Source: Lachnospiraceae bacterium
GTDB lineage: Bacteria > Bacillota > Clostridia > Lachnospirales > Lachnospiraceae
DNA length: 63,341 nt
Direction: 5' to 3'
Assembly: GCA_017450065.1 (NCBI GenBank)
Contig: JAFSYI010000042.1
Span: 1 to 63,341, forward strand
Made by a program: the position numbers and the translations under genes. Shown here one piece after another: positions 10,843 through 41,865 of the stretch. The notes under the pieces are model-generated. The model ran no database searches, had not been told where the DNA came from, and saw only the letters and a program-made list of their open reading frames with translations. Positions within the stretch are counted from its first letter, which is position 1. Every line of letters begins with the position of its first letter.

Positions 10843-10857
10843 AGAATCAGGAGGCAT

Positions 10858-13800
10858 ATGCTACAGAAGAATTACTATTTAAAAACTCCCCTTTCCATGG
10901 GGCAGGCATTATCGGATATTAAGAAGACACTTGAGAATACACCTCACAAATCGGCACTTCTAAACATTTTTGAGTCGGGTTTTCCGGGAGCACATGTTAA
11001 GAGAATGATCGACATCATAAGATCGGCTCTTCCCGATCTTGAGATGGCGGGTATTTCCCTGTATACAATGGTCGATATGCCCGGTGGGATAGGAGTGAAG
11101 GCTAACCTTATTGTATTCGAAGAGTCAGGTATCGAGGTCGTATCAATGGGCTGTGGTCCGGGAGAAGAGGATGCGGCTATAGGAGCAATGCGCTCAAGAC
11201 TTAGGGAGCACCCTGACGCCAAGGCTGTTGAACTGTTTGCTTTTGACAATGGCCTGAATGTGACGGAATTCATGAAAGGCATATCCGAAGGAAATGAGAA
11301 TATAGGGATATTCGGTACGATAACCTCAAACAGTATACAGGGTGCTGCCAATATTCATGGATTAAACAAATATAATCTGTTCAGGTTTTCGGGTGATCAT
11401 CTGGAAAACAATCAGCTTATCATCGGTGATAATATATATACATCCGGGATCGTAGCAGTGATCTTCTATGGATCTTCCCTTAAAGTGGAAATAAATTATG
11501 CCCTTGGCTGGCATCCGATCGGACGTGAGATGGAGATAGTTAAGGGAGAGAAGGGCAGGTTCGGTGAGACAACGGTCACCAATATAGACGGTATGCCGGC
11601 AGTGGATCTGTACAGGGAATATCTGGGTGTCTGTCCTGATGAGAATCTTATTACCAATATCTGCGAGTTCCCGCTCATGGTACAGAGAGACGGAGTTGAT
11701 ATATGTCTTATACCGTGTAATTACGGCGCTGATAAGGAGCTATATTTCAGTATGGCACTTAATGATGATGATAAGGTCCGGTTCTCGTTTGCAACACAGG
11801 GTGAAGTGCTCTCTGCAATGCGAGCATCCTTAAGGTCATTGCGATCGTTTCAGCCCGAGGCTCTGTTTCTTGTATTATGCGGAAACCGGCTTAATTTTCT
11901 CCGCGAAGAAGCGAAGCTTGAATGGGAGGAATTCGGTGAACTTATCCCTGATTATGCACTGATGCACGGTGGAAGTGAACTGCTGTATAAAAACGGAGCA
12001 GGCGGTGTGTTGAACAGCGCCCATCTTGCGATCGGAATGCGTGAAGGTGAACCGGAGACTGTTGCGGAACGGACCGGTGAAACAGAGACTGGTCGTCAGA
12101 CCGTAGAGGAGAATTCCGAACCGGATAACGGTAACAGAGAAGACGGAAATAATGCCCATAATCAGTCAGTGATCCCGCTGGCCGAAAGAATGTCCGTGTT
12201 CTTAAGTAAGATGACTGGACAGCTTATTGAGATGGCAGAGGATGCCAATGCCGCCAATCTGGCGAAATCAGCCTTCCTTTCCGCCATGTCGCACGAGATA
12301 CGTACGCCCATCAATGCCATACTCGGGATGGATGAAATGATCTTAAGGGAAAGTAATGAATCTCAGGTAATAGGCTATGCCGAGGATATCCGTTCTGCAG
12401 GGAATACACTGCTTGGGATAGTAAATGATGTTCTTGATTTTTCCAAGATAGAAGCCGGGAAGATGGATATTCTGCCTGTGGAGTATGAACTTTCATCTGT
12501 CATAAACGATCTGTATAATGTAATATGGAAGAGAGCTGAGGATAAGGGTCTTAAGCTTGTTCTTGATATTGATCCCGCAATACCGTCGATACTGTACGGT
12601 GACGAGATCAGGATCAAACAGATAATTACGAATATCCTTACGAATGCAGTTAAATATACGGAAGAGGGAACGGTAACCTTAAAGGCGGAATGCAGGAGGC
12701 TTGGCAAGCCGGTAACCCTTGATAACAAACCATGTGAGGTTCATGGAACGGAATGTCTGAGAAACCCGATGATGCTTATTGTAGCGGTTACCGATACGGG
12801 AATAGGGATCAGGGAAGAGGATCTTAAGAAGCTTTCCACTGCCTTTACCAGAGTGGATGAGAGAAGAAACCGTACTATAGAAGGGACAGGGCTTGGACTT
12901 AATATAACAAGAAGACTGTTGTCTCTTATGGGGAGCGATCTTCAGGTCGAAAGTACATATGGGAAGGGTTCGACTTTCTCATTCGAGATCGTCCAGGGGA
13001 TCGTCAGGGATGAACCGGTAGGTGAGGTGACCGAGAGGTTCTTAAGGTCGGCTGCCGTACGAAGGAAATATAAGGAGAGCTTTACCGCTCCGTCCGCAAG
13101 GATATTGGTAGTTGATGATACCAGGATGAATCTTGACGTGATCGTTAATCTTCTGAAGAGAACACGTATCACTGTTGATACTGTCGAAAGTGGGATGGAG
13201 GCGCTTGAAGCTGTTAAAAAGACTGCTTATGATGCGATCTTTCTTGATCACCGTATGCCGAATATGGACGGTCTGGAATGCTTTAAGAGGATGCGGGAGC
13301 TTAATGATAACATAAGTAAGGACGCCCCGGTTATCGCTCTTACGGCCAATGCGGTTTCGGGAGCCAGGGAGGAGTATTTAACACTCGGATTCGCGGATTA
13401 TCTTACGAAGCCTATTGATTCGCATAAGCTGGAGGAGATGCTTATAAGGTATCTTCCTGAGGATAAAGTCAATATAATAAAAGAGGAAGATAAAGAGACC
13501 GGTAATAACAGAGGAAACTCAGTAAAGGAAGCTGTATCCGGTGAAGCGGTTTTAAAGAGTTCGGAAGAAACGGAAGCAGCAGAGGTATCAGTAGAGGAAG
13601 CAATACCTGACTGGCTTAAGAAATGTGAGGATATCGATACAGAGAGCGGAATCGTAAACTGCGGGTCGACAGAAGGATATATTCAGATACTCACGGGCTT
13701 CTATGAGAATATCGATGCTAAGGCAGATGAGATAAAGAATCTGTATGAAGAGGGTAATTATAAGGATTATACGGTGAAAGTACACGCCCTTAAATCATCT

Positions 13801-14184
13801 GCCCGTATAGTCGGGCTGACAGAGCTGTCACAAATGGCAGAGGCGTTGGAGGCAGCAGGCGATGCAGATGACACGGATACGATCTGCAATGGTACACAGC
13901 CTCTGCTTGATAAGCTTATATCATATAAGGATGTACTTAACGGGCTGGCTAGTGACACCAGTGATGAGGATCTTCCTGAAGCTCCGCAGGCGGTGATCGA
14001 TGATGCATATGCCGGTATCGGTGAGTTCGCTCAGATTCAGGATTACGATCTTACACAGATGGTGCTTGATTCATTAAAGGAATATCGTCTCGCCGGTAAG
14101 GATAAGGAGAACTTCGACAGGATAGGTGATATGCTCTATAAGCTTGACTGGGATGGAATTCTTGAAGTTATAAAATACAGGTAA
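10858..14184 (+). CDS. Cytoplasmic FIST-domain hybrid sensor histidine kinase (HisKA-HATPase-REC-Hpt)
   Basis: A 1108-residue multidomain kinase. Residues 1 to about 395 form a FIST sensor: FIST_N, then FIST_C with the hallmark Y-A-L-G-W-H-P-I-G-R-E-M and I-D-G-M-P-A-V-D-L-Y-R-E-Y-L-G. A low-complexity acidic linker (about 400-440) leads to HisKA (S-H-E-I-R-T-P-I-N, His479) and a HATPase with D-T-G-I-G-I and G-T-G-L-G-L-N-I. A REC domain follows (F-L-D-H-R-M-P-N-M-D-G, Asp797), then an Hpt domain (V-H-A-L-K-S-S-A-R, His976). There are no membrane segments, so it senses a cytoplasmic small molecule. FIST domains are proposed to bind amino acids or similar ligands. It lies between prepilin genes and upstream of a response regulator, its likely phosphorelay target. 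Confidence 0.92.
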   Translation: MLQKNYYLKTPLSMGQALSDIKKTLENTPHKSALLNIFESGFPGAHVKRMIDIIRSALPDLEMAGISLYTMVDMPGGIGVKANLIVFEESGIEVVSMGCGPGEEDAAIGAMRSRLREHPDAKAVELFAFDNGLNVTEFMKGISEGNENIGIFGTITSNSIQGAANIHGLNKYNLFRFSGDHLENNQLIIGDNIYTSGIVAVIFYGSSLKVEINYALGWHPIGREMEIVKGEKGRFGETTVTNIDGMPAVDLYREYLGVCPDENLITNICEFPLMVQRDGVDICLIPCNYGADKELYFSMALNDDDKVRFSFATQGEVLSAMRASLRSLRSFQPEALFLVLCGNRLNFLREEAKLEWEEFGELIPDYALMHGGSELLYKNGAGGVLNSAHLAIGMREGEPETVAERTGETETGRQTVEENSEPDNGNREDGNNAHNQSVIPLAERMSVFLSKMTGQLIEMAEDANAANLAKSAFLSAMSHEIRTPINAILGMDEMILRESNESQVIGYAEDIRSAGNTLLGIVNDVLDFSKIEAGKMDILPVEYELSSVINDLYNVIWKRAEDKGLKLVLDIDPAIPSILYGDEIRIKQIITNILTNAVKYTEEGTVTLKAECRRLGKPVTLDNKPCEVHGTECLRNPMMLIVAVTDTGIGIREEDLKKLSTAFTRVDERRNRTIEGTGLGLNITRRLLSLMGSDLQVESTYGKGSTFSFEIVQGIVRDEPVGEVTERFLRSAAVRRKYKESFTAPSARILVVDDTRMNLDVIVNLLKRTRITVDTVESGMEALEAVKKTAYDAIFLDHRMPNMDGLECFKRMRELNDNISKDAPVIALTANAVSGAREEYLTLGFADYLTKPIDSHKLEEMLIRYLPEDKVNIIKEEDKETGNNRGNSVKEAVSGEAVLKSSEETEAAEVSVEEAIPDWLKKCEDIDTESGIVNCGSTEGYIQILTGFYENIDAKADEIKNLYEEGNYKDYTVKVHALKSSARIVGLTELSQMAEALEAAGDADDTDTICNGTQPLLDKLISYKDVLNGLASDTSDEDLPEAPQAVIDDAYAGIGEFAQIQDYDLTQMVLDSLKEYRLAGKDKENFDRIGDMLYKLDWDGILEVIKYR

Positions 14185-14188
14185 CTAT

Positions 14189-14325
14189 ATTCAAAACAGG
14201 CTCAAAATACTTCGTATTTTTCGCTGCTTTGGATTCATCCAATACATATATTTATAAAATATGTCCCTTACAAGCAAGCTTGACGGTTCATATTTTAAAA
14301 TATATGTGCTGTTCTGAATAGTTAC
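14189..14325 (+). repeat. Composite extragenic repeat (two modules)
   Basis: Module 1 (14189-14240) contains a hairpin with a CTTCG loop (AAAATA-CTTCG-TATTTT) and resembles 7573-7620. Module 2 (14265-14325) matches 39512-39572 at 59 of 61 positions and holds the palindrome ATATTTTAAAATAT. The element fills the gap between the FIST kinase and the response regulator, so it may end or attenuate transcription there. Nothing in it looks coding. Confidence 0.75.
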
Positions 14326-14402
14326 AAATTCAAATTGACACATTAGATATAATTTTCTACGATAGATACAGATATAGATATAAGAGAGCAAGAGGAGATA
14401 AG

Positions 14403-15167
14403 ATGGCTGATAAGGCACTGGTTATATGCTCATCCGAGACCTTTACCGTAAGGGGTCTGGAGATGAAGCTTAATACTGTAGGAGTTGAGTCCGTAAATGT
14501 AAGACCTAAGATTAAGGAGATAGCGTCTTCAATAGAGGGGACAGAGCTTGTAATCCTTTATACAGACGATACCTTCAGTGGGGCATCGGAAATTCTCGTA
14601 TACGTTAAGGACAGATGTCTCGGACAGGAAAGAAAGGTTGTTGTAATAGGAAGCGAAGCTGAGTACCGGGAAGTTAAGCAGTTCATTCCCGATGAATGTA
14701 TGCTGGCTTTCTATGAGAGGCCGCTTAAGATGGATAAGTTCCTGGATGATGTATCCGAATACTTCGATGAGGAGGCTGTGTTTAAGAGGCGTAAGAGTAT
14801 CCTTATAGTGGATGATGATATGTCGTATCTTAAGATGGTATATGACTGGCTCAAGGATAAATACCATGTATCGATGGCAGGCTCCGGGATGCAGGCTATT
14901 ACCTGGCTTGCGACCAATCATGCAGACCTTATTCTCCTTGATTATGAGATGCCGGTGACCAGCGGGCCGCAGGTGCTTGAAATGATCAAATCGGAACCGT
15001 CAACGGAAGCGATCCCCGTTATGTTCCTGACAGGAAAGAACGACCGTGCGAGCATAATGAAGGTATTGGAACTAAAGCCTGCCGACTATCTGCTTAAGAC
15101 CATTACTAAGGATGCTCTCCGCGAGAAGCTGGAGCAGTTCTTCTTAATGCATGATGCAGATGTGTGA
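14403..15167 (+). CDS. Response regulator with degenerate N-terminal and intact C-terminal REC domain
   Basis: A 254-residue protein without a DNA-binding output. Residues 1-120 look like a receiver fold whose phosphorylation site has decayed (I-L-Y-T-D-D-T-F). Residues about 130-254 are a standard CheY-like REC: I-L-I-V-D-D-D-M-S, phospho-acceptor in L-I-L-L-D-Y-E-M-P-V, then M-F-L-T-G-K and L-K-P-A-D-Y-L. AAGAGGAGATAAG precedes the ATG. Placed right after the FIST hybrid kinase, it is its probable partner, signalling by protein contact rather than by DNA binding. The next gene is a third prepilin, so the target may be pilus assembly. Confidence 0.85.
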   Translation: MADKALVICSSETFTVRGLEMKLNTVGVESVNVRPKIKEIASSIEGTELVILYTDDTFSGASEILVYVKDRCLGQERKVVVIGSEAEYREVKQFIPDECMLAFYERPLKMDKFLDDVSEYFDEEAVFKRRKSILIVDDDMSYLKMVYDWLKDKYHVSMAGSGMQAITWLATNHADLILLDYEMPVTSGPQVLEMIKSEPSTEAIPVMFLTGKNDRASIMKVLELKPADYLLKTITKDALREKLEQFFLMHDADV

Positions 15168-36009: not shown

Positions 36010-37410
36010 ATGGCAAACAATCAGCTGTTCAATGAAATAGGAGATGAAATAAAGGAAGCGCTCAAGGAAGGCCTGGCCAAGGGTGATTTTTCAGGGCTTA
36101 ACAATGCCATTATGGGCTCGGTTAACAGAGTGATCGATGACGCCACCGATCAGCTGGAGAGAAGCACCGGCATTAAGACGGGCAGAGCGCAGAATGTCTC
36201 CACACATACCTACAGCACCTATTCCCGGGGAACTGCGACCAGGGAACGGCAGAAGCAGCTCGAGAGAGAACGGAAGGAAAGACAGCAGCGTCTTGAAAGG
36301 GAACGCGAGGAAAGACAGAAAAGACGTGAAACGGAGAAGGAACAAAGACGTCAGCGCCAGGCCGTATTTTCTTCAAGACCCGATGCGACCGAGGCCAGAA
36401 GGAAGAGCCTTGAGGAAAGAAGGGCGAAGAATGAGCTTGCAAGAAGGATGAAGAGTCCCAATGCGATAGTAGTGGGAGGCAATCTTCTGCCCACTAAATT
36501 TGTGGCAGTGGATGACACGAGGAGCATCCTCGATATAGTGTTCGGTGCTATCGGGGTGATGCTGTTTTTCACGCTTGCCATTGTACTTGGAACAGTAAAG
36601 GGCTTTGTTCCGGGACTTATCTTCTCACTGCTTACCGCTGCAAGTGCGGGTCTTGGTATTCTGGGGATCCAAAAAAGAAAGATAACAGAAAGGGCCAAAC
36701 GTTATGCGAGGATCTGCGGAGAGAAGATGTATGCTAAGCTTTCACAGATATCCTCAGCCACCGGTATGAGTGAAAAGGCTCTTAAGAAGGATATAAAGAA
36801 GATGCTCAGGACGGGCTATTATCCTGAAGGATATATGGATGAGGAAGAGACCACCCTGATGCTTTCCGAAGATGTATACAGGGAGTATTCATCCATGAAG
36901 AGCAGGATGAAGACGGAGGAGGAAGAGAAGAGAAAAGAGGCTGAAAGCAGGCTTACAGGAGAGGAAAAGTCAGAGCTTGATATTATGGTCGGTGAAGGAA
37001 TGGATGCCGTAAACAGGCTTCATAAGCTCAATGATGATATTCCGGGAGAGGTGATAAGTGCCAAGCTTGATCTTCTGGAGGATCTTCTGAAGCAGATATT
37101 CAACCGTGTAAGCGAACATCCCGAGCAGATGGACAGAATGCACAAGCTTATGGACTACTATCTTCCGACCATGCTTAAGCTTGTTGAAGCCTATGCGGAA
37201 TATGATAAAGTGAGTACTCCCGGTAAGGAGCTTATCCAGGCCAAATCGGAGATAGAGAACACGCTTGATACGATAAATGAAGCCTTTGTGCAGCTGCTTA
37301 ACAACCTGTTCCAGGATTCGGTATGGGATGTGACGAGCGATGCACAGGTACTTACGACCATGCTTACACAGGAAGGACTTGCGCAGGAAGCGGCGCTTAA
37401 GACACAGTAA
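36010..37410 (+). CDS. XpaC-family (5-bromo-4-chloroindolyl phosphate hydrolysis) protein
   Basis: 466 residues. N-terminal amphipathic region, then a long Arg/Glu/Gln-rich stretch from about 75 to 150 (repeated E-R-E-R-E-E-R-Q type, predicted coiled coil), two membrane helices near 180-215 (G-V-M-L-F-F-T-L-A-I-V and P-G-L-I-F-S-L-L-T-A-A), and a helical C-terminal half of the XpaC type. Paired with TelA downstream, the usual partnership. Biochemical role unclear. It follows cpsD by six bases. Confidence 0.85.
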   Translation: MANNQLFNEIGDEIKEALKEGLAKGDFSGLNNAIMGSVNRVIDDATDQLERSTGIKTGRAQNVSTHTYSTYSRGTATRERQKQLERERKERQQRLEREREERQKRRETEKEQRRQRQAVFSSRPDATEARRKSLEERRAKNELARRMKSPNAIVVGGNLLPTKFVAVDDTRSILDIVFGAIGVMLFFTLAIVLGTVKGFVPGLIFSLLTAASAGLGILGIQKRKITERAKRYARICGEKMYAKLSQISSATGMSEKALKKDIKKMLRTGYYPEGYMDEEETTLMLSEDVYREYSSMKSRMKTEEEEKRKEAESRLTGEEKSELDIMVGEGMDAVNRLHKLNDDIPGEVISAKLDLLEDLLKQIFNRVSEHPEQMDRMHKLMDYYLPTMLKLVEAYAEYDKVSTPGKELIQAKSEIENTLDTINEAFVQLLNNLFQDSVWDVTSDAQVLTTMLTQEGLAQEAALKTQ

Positions 37411-37436
37411 AGACAAAAAGTAGGAGGGTTACAAAA

Positions 37437-38654
37437 ATGGATGAAAACATGAATGCAGCAGTAATGGGAGGAACACAGGCAGCGGTCGCGGCGGAGCCTG
37501 TTACGTCGGCTATACCGGAAGCGACTCTGTATGAGTCGCCGTTTGCACCGATCGAGGAAACCAAGCCTGCCAATGCCGGTATAAACTTCGGTACGGAGCT
37601 TGCAGATATTAAGACAAAGACAGATCTGACGCCTGAGGAACAGAAGGTAGTTGACAGTTATGTTTCCCAGATAGATCTTAACAATACACAGCTGGTGATC
37701 CAGTATGGAGCGGGAGCCCAGAAGAAGATAGCCGATTTCTCGGAGGGAGCGCTTAACAATGTCCGTACCAAGGATATGGGCGAGATCGGTGAGATGCTTA
37801 CAGGCCTTGTTGCCGAGCTTAAGGGCTTTAACAGCGAAGAAGAGAAGAAGGGCTTTCTCGGGATATTCAAGAAGGGTCAGGCCAAGGTTAACGATCTTGT
37901 GGCCAGATATGACAAGACAGAGGCCAATGTAAACAAGGTTGTCAAGATAATGGAAGGACATCAGGTGACACTGCTTAAGGATGTTGCAATGCTTGACAAG
38001 ATGTATGAGACCAATCTTACATATTACAAGAATCTTACCCTCTATATAATCGCAGGTAAGGAGAAGCTCGCCATAGCCAAGCAGCAGGAGCTCCCCAGGC
38101 TGCTTAAGAAGGCTGAGGAGTCGGGACTTCCCGAGGATTCACAGGCTGCTTCGGATTACGCTTCAATGATAGAGCGTTTTGAGAAGAAGATATATGACCT
38201 TGAGCTTACAAGGAACATTTCAATGCAGATGGCACCGCAGATAAGGCTCATCCAGAACAATGATACGATGATGTCAGAGAAGATCCAGAGCACACTTGTC
38301 AATACCATTCCTCTGTGGAAGAGCCAGATGGTAATTGCCATAGGACTGAACCATTCGACAGAGGCTGCCAAGGCACAGAAGGATGTTACGGATATGACCA
38401 ATGAACTTCTTAAGAAGAACGCTGAGGCACTTAAGATAGCGACTGTTGCGTCGGCAAAGGAGGCGGAGAGAGGAATCGTGGATATCGAGACTCTTACACA
38501 TACAAACCAGACTCTTATCGATACGCTTAATGAGGTTGTACAGATACAGGCAGACGGCCGAACCAAGAGAGCTGAGGCCGAGAAGGAGCTCTCAAGGATT
38601 GAGACGGAGATGCATAATAAGCTCATAGAGCTCAGCAAGGTCAGCCTTCAGTAG
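37437..38654 (+). CDS. TelA / KlaA family toxic-anion-resistance protein
   Basis: 405 residues, helical throughout. Shows the family's centre: G-F-L-G-I-F-K-K-G, V-T-L-L-K-D-V-A-M-L-D-K-M-Y-E, I-A-G-K-E-K-L, and P-L-W-K-S-Q-M. Named for tellurite resistance but widely linked to envelope stress with XpaC. GTAGGAGGG precedes the ATG and a strong terminator follows. Confidence 0.93.
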   Translation: MDENMNAAVMGGTQAAVAAEPVTSAIPEATLYESPFAPIEETKPANAGINFGTELADIKTKTDLTPEEQKVVDSYVSQIDLNNTQLVIQYGAGAQKKIADFSEGALNNVRTKDMGEIGEMLTGLVAELKGFNSEEEKKGFLGIFKKGQAKVNDLVARYDKTEANVNKVVKIMEGHQVTLLKDVAMLDKMYETNLTYYKNLTLYIIAGKEKLAIAKQQELPRLLKKAEESGLPEDSQAASDYASMIERFEKKIYDLELTRNISMQMAPQIRLIQNNDTMMSEKIQSTLVNTIPLWKSQMVIAIGLNHSTEAAKAQKDVTDMTNELLKKNAEALKIATVASAKEAERGIVDIETLTHTNQTLIDTLNEVVQIQADGRTKRAEAEKELSRIETEMHNKLIELSKVSLQ

Positions 38655-40721: not shown

Positions 40722-40750
40722 ACAGAATTTATAACCGTTTCATTATATAC

Positions 40751-40781
40751 AAAAAGCCGCCTGTAACAAAAGCGGCTTTTT
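40751..40781 (+). terminator. Terminator between dehydrogenase and FliM-motif gene
   Basis: AAAAAGCCGC (40751-40760) pairs with GCGGCTTTTT (40772-40781), loop 11 nt, usable on both strands for the two convergent genes. Confidence 0.93.
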
Positions 40782-40805
40782 GTAATATGCGGAAATGAAA
40801 TCATG

Positions 40806-41171
40806 TCAGTTATGTATGGCAAGAAGCTTGTCGATAAGGATATCGATATCCTCCTGGGACATGATGGCCTGATTGCTTACAAGGTCTGCATTAAGCTCAT
40901 CAAGCTGCCCGTATTCCCTGTAGGTATTAAGAGCATCAATAAGTGAATCGATCTCGGCCTGGGACAGAACGGCATTGGCCTTGGGCTTGTAGGCGGGAAG
41001 CCCCTTGGCATTATTGAGGGATTCAATGAGCTTATCGATCTCGCTCTGGGAAAGGACCACCTGACTGTTTAGAACATCCTCGGAAATAACTTCATCATCC
41101 GAGTAACCTTTAATGGCTCTTAAGGCATCGACCAGAGAATCTACTTCAGCCTGAGATAATACTTTTTCCAT
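40806..41171 (-). CDS. Small protein of four FliM-N-terminal (CheY-binding-like) motifs
   Basis: 121 residues, acidic. Four copies of L-S-Q-x-E-I-D-x-L-I-(D/E)-x-L start at residues 5, 40, 69 and 104 (the last as M-S-Q-E-D-I-D-I-L). This is the consensus of the FliM N-terminal peptide (L-S-Q-x-E-I-D-A-L-L), which binds phosphorylated CheY at the flagellar switch. There is no FliM, FliN or CheC body, no signal peptide and no membrane helix. Linkers are 15-22 residues. It stands alone, with CATGTAAGC and AGGAGCATG context before the ATG. I infer a soluble multivalent response-regulator-binding protein; no characterised counterpart is known to me. Confidence 0.75.
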   Translation of the reverse strand: MEKVLSQAEVDSLVDALRAIKGYSDDEVISEDVLNSQVVLSQSEIDKLIESLNNAKGLPAYKPKANAVLSQAEIDSLIDALNTYREYGQLDELNADLVSNQAIMSQEDIDILIDKLLAIHN

Positions 41172-41359
41172 GCTTACATGCTCCTTTATGTGAATGGTGT
41201 GTTTTCGTAACCTGTATATGCTGACGTGAACAGTCCTGATTACAGTATATCACAGATTTATGCAGGAAAAAACAAAATATGAAAATCTCTGTTTTTCTCT
41301 CTGTTTTACGCCGGTCCGGGGAAAAACGGAGATAAGATCCGCAACAGAATAAAAACAGA

Positions 41360-41634: not shown

Positions 41635-41865
41635 ATGATAGAAAAGAAAGATGGGATTATTGCGGATGAATCATTAGAGAAGGTTAACGGTGGATTCTAT
41701 GAGGAGGATGTAGGAGTAATACCCAAGGATTATCATAAGACCATTAAATGTCCCAACTGCGGAAATGAGGACAGAAGCAAGATTAAATATGAAAAGTCAG
41801 GTGATATCCTGCTTCCCGGCGATTACCATTGCCTGCTTTGCGGAAAATACTTCGATGCGGTTTAA
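41635..41865 (+). CDS. Double-glycine-leader peptide with a zinc-ribbon tail
   Basis: 76 residues. The N-terminus reads A-D-E-S-L-E-K-V-N-G-G, the typical bacteriocin or RiPP double-glycine leader (L-x-x-V-x-G-G) cut by PCAT-type ABC transporters. The remainder has C-P-N-C-G-N and C-L-L-C-G-K, a four-cysteine zinc-ribbon-like pair. AAAGGAG precedes the ATG. No transporter, modification enzyme or immunity gene is nearby. It could be an orphan secreted peptide or a small zinc protein that merely carries the leader. Confidence 0.7.
   Translation: MIEKKDGIIADESLEKVNGGFYEEDVGVIPKDYHKTIKCPNCGNEDRSKIKYEKSGDILLPGDYHCLLCGKYFDAV

Follow-up and report, generated by a model that had tools for sequence, protein, structure and literature searches.

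What might a stand-alone protein do that repeats, four times over, the motif found at the N-terminus of the flagellar switch protein FliM? The question is raised by a 121-aa open reading frame (ORF P0001) at 40806-41171 on the minus strand of a 63,341-nucleotide stretch of Lachnospiraceae DNA (contig JAFSYI010000042.1, the window from here on), which has homologues in rumen bacteria and is under purifying selection. Its stop codon lies at 40806-40808, and the plus strand across the same interval contains stops in the corresponding frame. A sequence-only reading of this DNA had reported four such motifs in 121 residues, with no strand given, had seen no switch-complex domain beside them, and had taken them for the CheY-binding type of FliM; all three points hold, the last by the profile comparisons described below. 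Motif 1 (residues 5-13, LSQAEVDSL; 41133-41159, minus strand, as are all features of the gene) begins at residue 5, like that of FliM from the same genome. It is followed by motif 2 (residues 40-48, LSQSEIDKL; 41028-41054), motif 3 (residues 69-77, LSQAEIDSL; 40941-40967), which resembles the FliM of this genome most (10 of 14 residues agree), and motif 4 (residues 104-112, MSQEDIDIL; 40836-40862), which is the least FliM-like and is missed by an HMM of the FliM N-terminus (FliM_N). The pattern L/M-S-Q-x-E/D-I/V-D-x-L thus matches four times in this protein, and is absent from every other ORF of at least 20 aa in the six-frame translation of the window (93,758 residues). Among 300,000 shuffles of the 121-aa protein, 299,984 contained no copy of the pattern, 16 contained one and none contained more; the looser core S-Q-x-x-I/V-D occurred twice in 22 of the same shuffles and never more often.

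The absence of a switch-complex domain is seen in a Pfam search at E values up to 10, in which none of the 15 matches reached the cut-off or belonged to a flagellar family. Neither the FliM middle domain (PF02154) nor FliMN_C (PF01052) was among these matches, nor were CheC (PF04509) and CheX (PF13690), and the protein therefore lies outside the FliM, FliY and phosphatase families. Its best NCBIfam match was FliM itself (TIGR01397, E 6e-5, model positions 2-24, cut-off not reached), with a whole-protein score far under the cut-off.

The protein belongs to a real family in which selection is strongest within the motifs. Compared with its counterpart in a related genome (G005), synonymous divergence is near saturation (pS 0.79) at a pN of 0.05. 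Pooled over ten sequences (the partial L014 and L009 and L019, a near-copy of the window protein, being set aside), pN/pS amounts to 0.21 for motif columns as against 0.48 elsewhere, values that saturation makes rough. That the ORF is spurious, or a decayed fragment of fliM, consequently has a vanishingly small probability: the divergence from G005 refutes it, shuffling never yields a second full motif, and the genome has an intact fliM with a motif of its own. The sole point in its favor concerns two of the ten carrier genomes of the genus, G007 (L014/L018) and G035 (L009/L017), in which contig ends split the gene into two pieces; these assembly breaks are perhaps due to the internal repeats of the gene.

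In excerpts from four papers, the CheY-binding motif at the N-terminus of FliM is named as LSQxEIDxLL, LSQXEIDALL or "EIDALL" (the last in PMC9126983), and two of the four, PMC9126983 included, assign it to FliY as well. The residue after the last motif leucine is V or I in the 121-aa protein, in contrast to the second L of LSQxEIDxLL. Excerpts from the literature also describe a salt bridge between Asp12 of Escherichia coli FliM and Lys119 of CheY, with FliM residues 8-15 forming a helix; a Caulobacter FliM in which replacement of the Ile/Asp pair of the motif preserved swimming and abolished reversals; and a crystal structure, 4IGA, of Thermotoga maritima CheY in complex with FliM residues 1-16. 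By the numbering of our PDB profile match, FliM Asp12 corresponds to the motif D of the repeats, which is invariant in all four motifs of 10/10 sequences tallied. The residue preceding it is I everywhere except for V in motif 1 of three of the ten sequences, and Q, D and both L residues are invariant apart from the first L, which is M in half of the copies of motif 4.

Profile tests in both directions support the identification of the repeats as FliM N-terminal motifs. A profile of the repeats, built from 33 of 39 distinct 20-mers after removal of six near-duplicates by hand, was compared with 177,635 PDB sequences, where the T. maritima FliM peptide 4IGA_B ranked first (E 0.0097), followed by residues 4-14 of FliM in 8UMD, which we take to be from Salmonella (E 0.17), and by a folate synthesis protein, 7MPY (E 0.29), so that the margin beyond rank 1 is thin. 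With a profile of the whole protein, an unrelated lipoprotein (E 0.048) took first place ahead of 4IGA_B (E 0.08), which was next. The FliM_N HMM, built from ten distinct FliM N-termini, was run over 5,942 ORFs; FliM rows apart, which were filtered from the listing, it recovered the family of the 121-aa protein, ORFs next to fliM that are short or occupy the FliY position, and a single other motif protein. In the reverse scan, an HMM of the 39 repeats placed FliM at 12.0-19.5 bits and the top unrelated ORF at 8.2 (two FliM ORFs of G171, a genome from another genus of the bacterial family, were tallied under "other"); ORF counts in both scans contain duplicates from overlapping loci. For six proteins searched against NCBIfam, the FliM model was the best match for five and the second best for one (E 8e-9 to 9e-4), always through its N-terminal positions, and some members of the family also gave a weak match to an unrelated Plasmodium model, TIGR01639.

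A FliM_N search for stand-alone multi-motif proteins had been suggested as a check, and the family is among the matches of the scan above. A different, two-motif protein is encoded in genome G280. This protein (L058, 1462-2061, plus strand; also L069, 9747-10346) has 190 residues, of which the motifs LSQSEIDTL and LSQESIDKL precede about 140 without a Pfam match over the cut-off. It represents another, distinct case of FliM_N motifs in a stand-alone protein, and its genome too is flagellated.

The earlier description of the protein as built only from motifs is right as to the four motifs and is modified by their arrangement. In 11 of 11 full-length members, the motifs are spaced 35-(29 to 33)-35. 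The first pair forms a unit (residues 5-52; 41016-41159) to which the second (residues 69-116; 40824-40967) aligns with no internal gaps, and the two have the connector residues Y23 and Q37 in common. The fixed 35-residue spacing, together with these shared residues, indicates a duplicated two-motif unit rather than four separate motifs strung together without constraint, and the family most likely originated by doubling of a two-motif unit with a constrained inner distance. The same features suggest a folded unit in which the motifs are possibly buried, which would count against a role as a ligand. AlphaFold2 placed a helix on each motif of the whole protein (pLDDT 50, pTM 0.22, from eight sequences) and modeled a single unit as helix, short helix, helix, with no confident packing (pTM 0.31, from 15 sequences); the helices of the unit start at residues 7 and 42, in blocks of pLDDT 79 and 80 within a model of low overall confidence.

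A sequence of the form hydrophobic-S/T-x-x-E-hydrophobic is a common way to start a helix (the capping box), and the S-x-x-E of the repeats fits it. The likeness to FliM could then be generic, and the protein a small helical-repeat fold with a different role, as the conservation of spacing and connectors and the modeled helical unit would allow. We consider this quite improbable: the invariant Q, D and leucines (save for the M in motif 4) exceed what a cap needs, the specific neighbors of the repeats are FliM, both in the scans of 5,942 ORFs and in the first ranks of the 177,635 PDB sequences, and the low pTM values, albeit from few sequences, amount to no confident fold.

Matches to the protein occur in 12 of 37 genomes of the genus, ten of them genuine and two aminotransferase-like. 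A draw of 397 genomes from the bacterial family returned the window's genome, G171, which has all four motifs, G280 with its different two-motif protein, and a chance match in G417. A contig scan gave eight loci, all titled as Lachnospiraceae metagenome-assembled genomes (MAGs), among which L024 and L026 represent two additional MAG genomes. Draws from the class (391 genomes) and phylum (398) contained no further motif-bearing match beyond the window's genome; three matches there all lacked the motif. Candidate relatives in G003, G009 and the window's own genome (C52:10238) were rejected as aminotransferase-like ORFs, and those in G417, G482, G662 and G677 because the motif is missing. No genuine match was found in 27 of the 37 genomes of the genus, several of them 98-99% complete, and since the genus is flagellated, the gene must be dispensable for chemotaxis in general.

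A mobile origin was considered and rejected, as there were zero matches in phages, plasmids and viral contigs; PHROGs and PADLOC gave weak partial matches only (best E 2.7e-4 and 0.021). On a FliM tree of 36 rows (G003, G013 and G035, where FliM was not found, have no row, and the genomes of L024 and L026 have none either), carriers are clustered: they require 4 changes, whereas shuffling gives 8.9 on average, with 0/500 shuffles as low. Such clustering is better explained by inheritance with losses than by scattering. In the tree of the protein itself, G027 groups with G001 (support 100/99) and the window's genome with G019 (86/84), in agreement with FliM, and the deeper nodes are poorly supported.

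The gene had been described as isolated and transcribed alone; its solitary position and the hairpin at its 3' side favor this by anatomy. Its neighbors are a 2-hydroxyacid dehydrogenase gene, in convergent orientation, and a divergently oriented tRNA-Gly gene, and it lies outside the flagellar and chemotaxis (fla/che) cluster. A Shine-Dalgarno-like AAGGAG, read from the sequence, precedes the ATG (41181-41186), and a possible extended -10 element, TGATATACT, is found at 41244-41252, where the promoter scan listed none; an extended -10-like TGATATACT also lies upstream of the gene in the close relatives G019, G005 and G035. Downstream of the gene, folding predicts a terminator-like hairpin with a 15-bp stem, on whose 3' side the U-run lies (40748-40784; -21.3 kcal/mol for the stretch, z -5.4). 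A terminator consensus scan listed none at the gene, and a hairpin also follows it in G005, G171 and L024. Membership in a flagellar regulon was rejected, as no sigma-28-like site (TAAA, 13-17 bases, CCGATA; one mismatch allowed, CCGATA only) was found in the upstream regions of 13 genes (at most 300 bases each). We also rejected a conserved partner gene, given that none adjoins the gene in all 14 stretches compared (13 loci plus the window, several of them short). The dehydrogenase is adjoining or one gene away in 4/14 (the window, L019, L021 and L023), and the remaining shared neighbor ORFs are shared between near relatives or form three clusters of two stretches each. Elsewhere in this part of the window, a 76-aa ORF (41635-41865) has a CxxC pair, a PF08273 match just below cut-off and an N-terminus that, to the eye, resembles a double-glycine leader.

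As for the putative receptor, contig C52 of this genome carries the flagellar and chemotaxis cluster, in which FliM (G000:C52:61082) starts MGEVLSQNEIDSLLQALSSGELD, with its motif from residue 5, and FliY starts MDGMLSQDEINALLSG; cheY directly follows fliY, and CheC and CheD lie further along (other gene names of the cluster were assigned by reading of the sequences). The best PDB match of this CheY (G000:C52:63276) is 4IGA_A, the CheY of the 4IGA crystal (E 2.9e-52), so that each partner in that crystal structure has a relative encoded in this genome. Whether or not a genome carries the gene, the FliM ORFs listed keep their own motif intact, which indicates that the 121-aa protein adds to the motor docking site and does not replace it. 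Flagellation of carriers is indicated by FliM in nine of the ten genus genomes and by FlhA in the tenth (G035), and extends to G171 (the genomes of L024 and L026 lay outside this check). Co-occurrence with flagella was rejected as proof, being too weak against a baseline of FliM in 34/37 genus genomes and 206/397 family genomes.

The genome contains 42 receiver matches, among them CheY-type paralogues of 129 and 142 aa (45-46% identity) and of 145 aa (35%), and the motifs may instead bind one of these single-domain proteins, or another receiver, in a pathway outside motility. The position of the gene outside the flagellar cluster and the lack of a detected sigma-28-like site would suit this reading, which we nevertheless hold to be decidedly doubtful, as the motif is that of FliM, the CheY of the flagellar operon is of the type partnered in 4IGA, and all carriers checked are flagellated, although the baseline in the family is high. 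Two such single-domain CheY-type proteins of the same genome are encoded at L083 (5370-5756) and L084 (4916-5341), and next to each lies an ORF that gave no Pfam match above the cut-off in the first 141 and 137 residues searched, respectively.

A specific target suggested earlier, the REC protein at 14403 in the window, is not supported as a partner to be tethered. It has 254 residues with a REC domain only at 133-243, bears a weak likeness to the motor CheY (29% identity), and its gene directly follows that of a FIST-HisKA-HATPase-REC-Hpt hybrid kinase (the two together spanning 10852-15167), and it therefore looks like part of the phosphorelay of that kinase. By reading, these two genes lie amid ORFs with N-termini like type IV pilin signals. 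Further along the window, an ORF pair at 36010-38654, matching PF10112 (E 2e-12) and TelA PF05816 (E 1e-120), is situated downstream of what read as polysaccharide-type genes.

Taken together, binding of the motifs to phosphorylated CheY (CheY~P) is strongly implied by the sequence comparisons. That the protein acts as a soluble multivalent ligand of CheY~P, in competition with FliM and FliY, we judge to have an even chance of being correct. The observed part of this reading comprises the specific FliM_N likeness, the conservation, the spacing and the presence of cognate CheY, FliM and FliY; from it we infer binding, phospho-preference, stoichiometry, sequestration and an effect on switching. 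Each motif would form an amphipathic helix in the alpha4-beta5-alpha5 groove of CheY~P, like the N-termini of FliM and FliY, and the two duplicated units would offer up to four CheY~P sites per chain. CheY~P so held would be kept from FliM or FliY, and its free concentration would be lowered and buffered, with the result that motor switching is shifted or smoothed. According to the excerpt of PMC9126983, a FliM_N peptide binds activated CheY at 27 µM, compared with 39 nM for a longer piece of T. maritima FliM. At the affinity of the peptide, sequestration would need micromolar amounts of protein or a multivalent gain. In a toy equilibrium with this affinity and general-knowledge inputs (3 µM CheY~P and a Hill coefficient of 10), 2 µM of protein reduces free CheY~P from 3.0 to 2.36 µM. 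Motors switch steeply with CheY~P, and because of this even a modest competitor could reset the bias, within a toy model and inputs of this kind that show sequestration only as possible.

The same motifs might act as a scaffold instead, holding two to four CheY~P together for cooperative switching or local turnover, or bringing them close to the C-ring, or handing them to FliY and CheC for dephosphorylation. The invariant 35-residue spacing suggests a defined geometry over loose capture, and FliY and CheC are both encoded in the genome. We nonetheless think a scaffold unlikely, and equally so its delivery variants: Pfam and NCBIfam reveal no second domain type or recognizable targeting element, and there is no obvious partner among the neighbors, where beyond near relatives only the dehydrogenase recurs. 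The boldest reading is that of a dedicated CheY~P sponge, an evolutionarily maintained stand-alone motif array that would set the level of free CheY~P by competing with the motor stoichiometrically and through several sites at once, and its prospects seem to us a little short of even. If true, it would represent a level of control distinct from phosphatases, phosphate sinks and adaptation.

The known means of controlling CheY~P are, to our knowledge, its synthesis, its hydrolysis and phosphoryl transfer to another receiver. Among the matches listed for the open PMC literature (titles and the starts of abstracts; most subscription papers and all preprints lie outside it), no such protein is named. 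New here is the constant 35-(29 to 33)-35 spacing; the protein is a stand-alone array of a known FliM docking motif. Should the proposed capture be correct, the protein would also offer a natural tool for CheY~P capture and a means of testing how far the N-terminus of FliM matters as a tether.

Among known systems, the nearest is FliM_N itself, as in T. maritima 4IGA and the genome's own FliM, which has in common with the repeats LSQxEIDxL followed by xxAL, and a start at residue 5 as in the genome's FliM. Unlike FliM, the 121-aa protein lacks PF02154 and FliMN_C, has four motifs instead of one, and is encoded away from the flagellar cluster. FliY, the CheC-like C-ring phosphatase, carries an N-terminal LSQDEINALL in this genome, together with CheC and FliMN_C domains that the 121-aa protein does not have. 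The phosphatases CheZ, CheC and CheX would share with it the same target molecule, CheY~P, if binding holds, and an excerpt of PMC3774744 states that CheZ uses the same face of CheY as FliM. The 121-aa protein, in contrast, has no such domain (Pfam, E up to 10), and its action would accordingly be by binding, not hydrolysis. Phosphate-sink CheYs, as suggested for Vibrio cholerae CheY4 in the same excerpt, would likewise divert the signal from the motor; being receivers, these accept the phosphoryl group themselves, whereas the 121-aa protein is proposed as a ligand that holds CheY~P, and would, if true, add titration to the control of CheY~P as a novel means of adjusting how bacteria swim.
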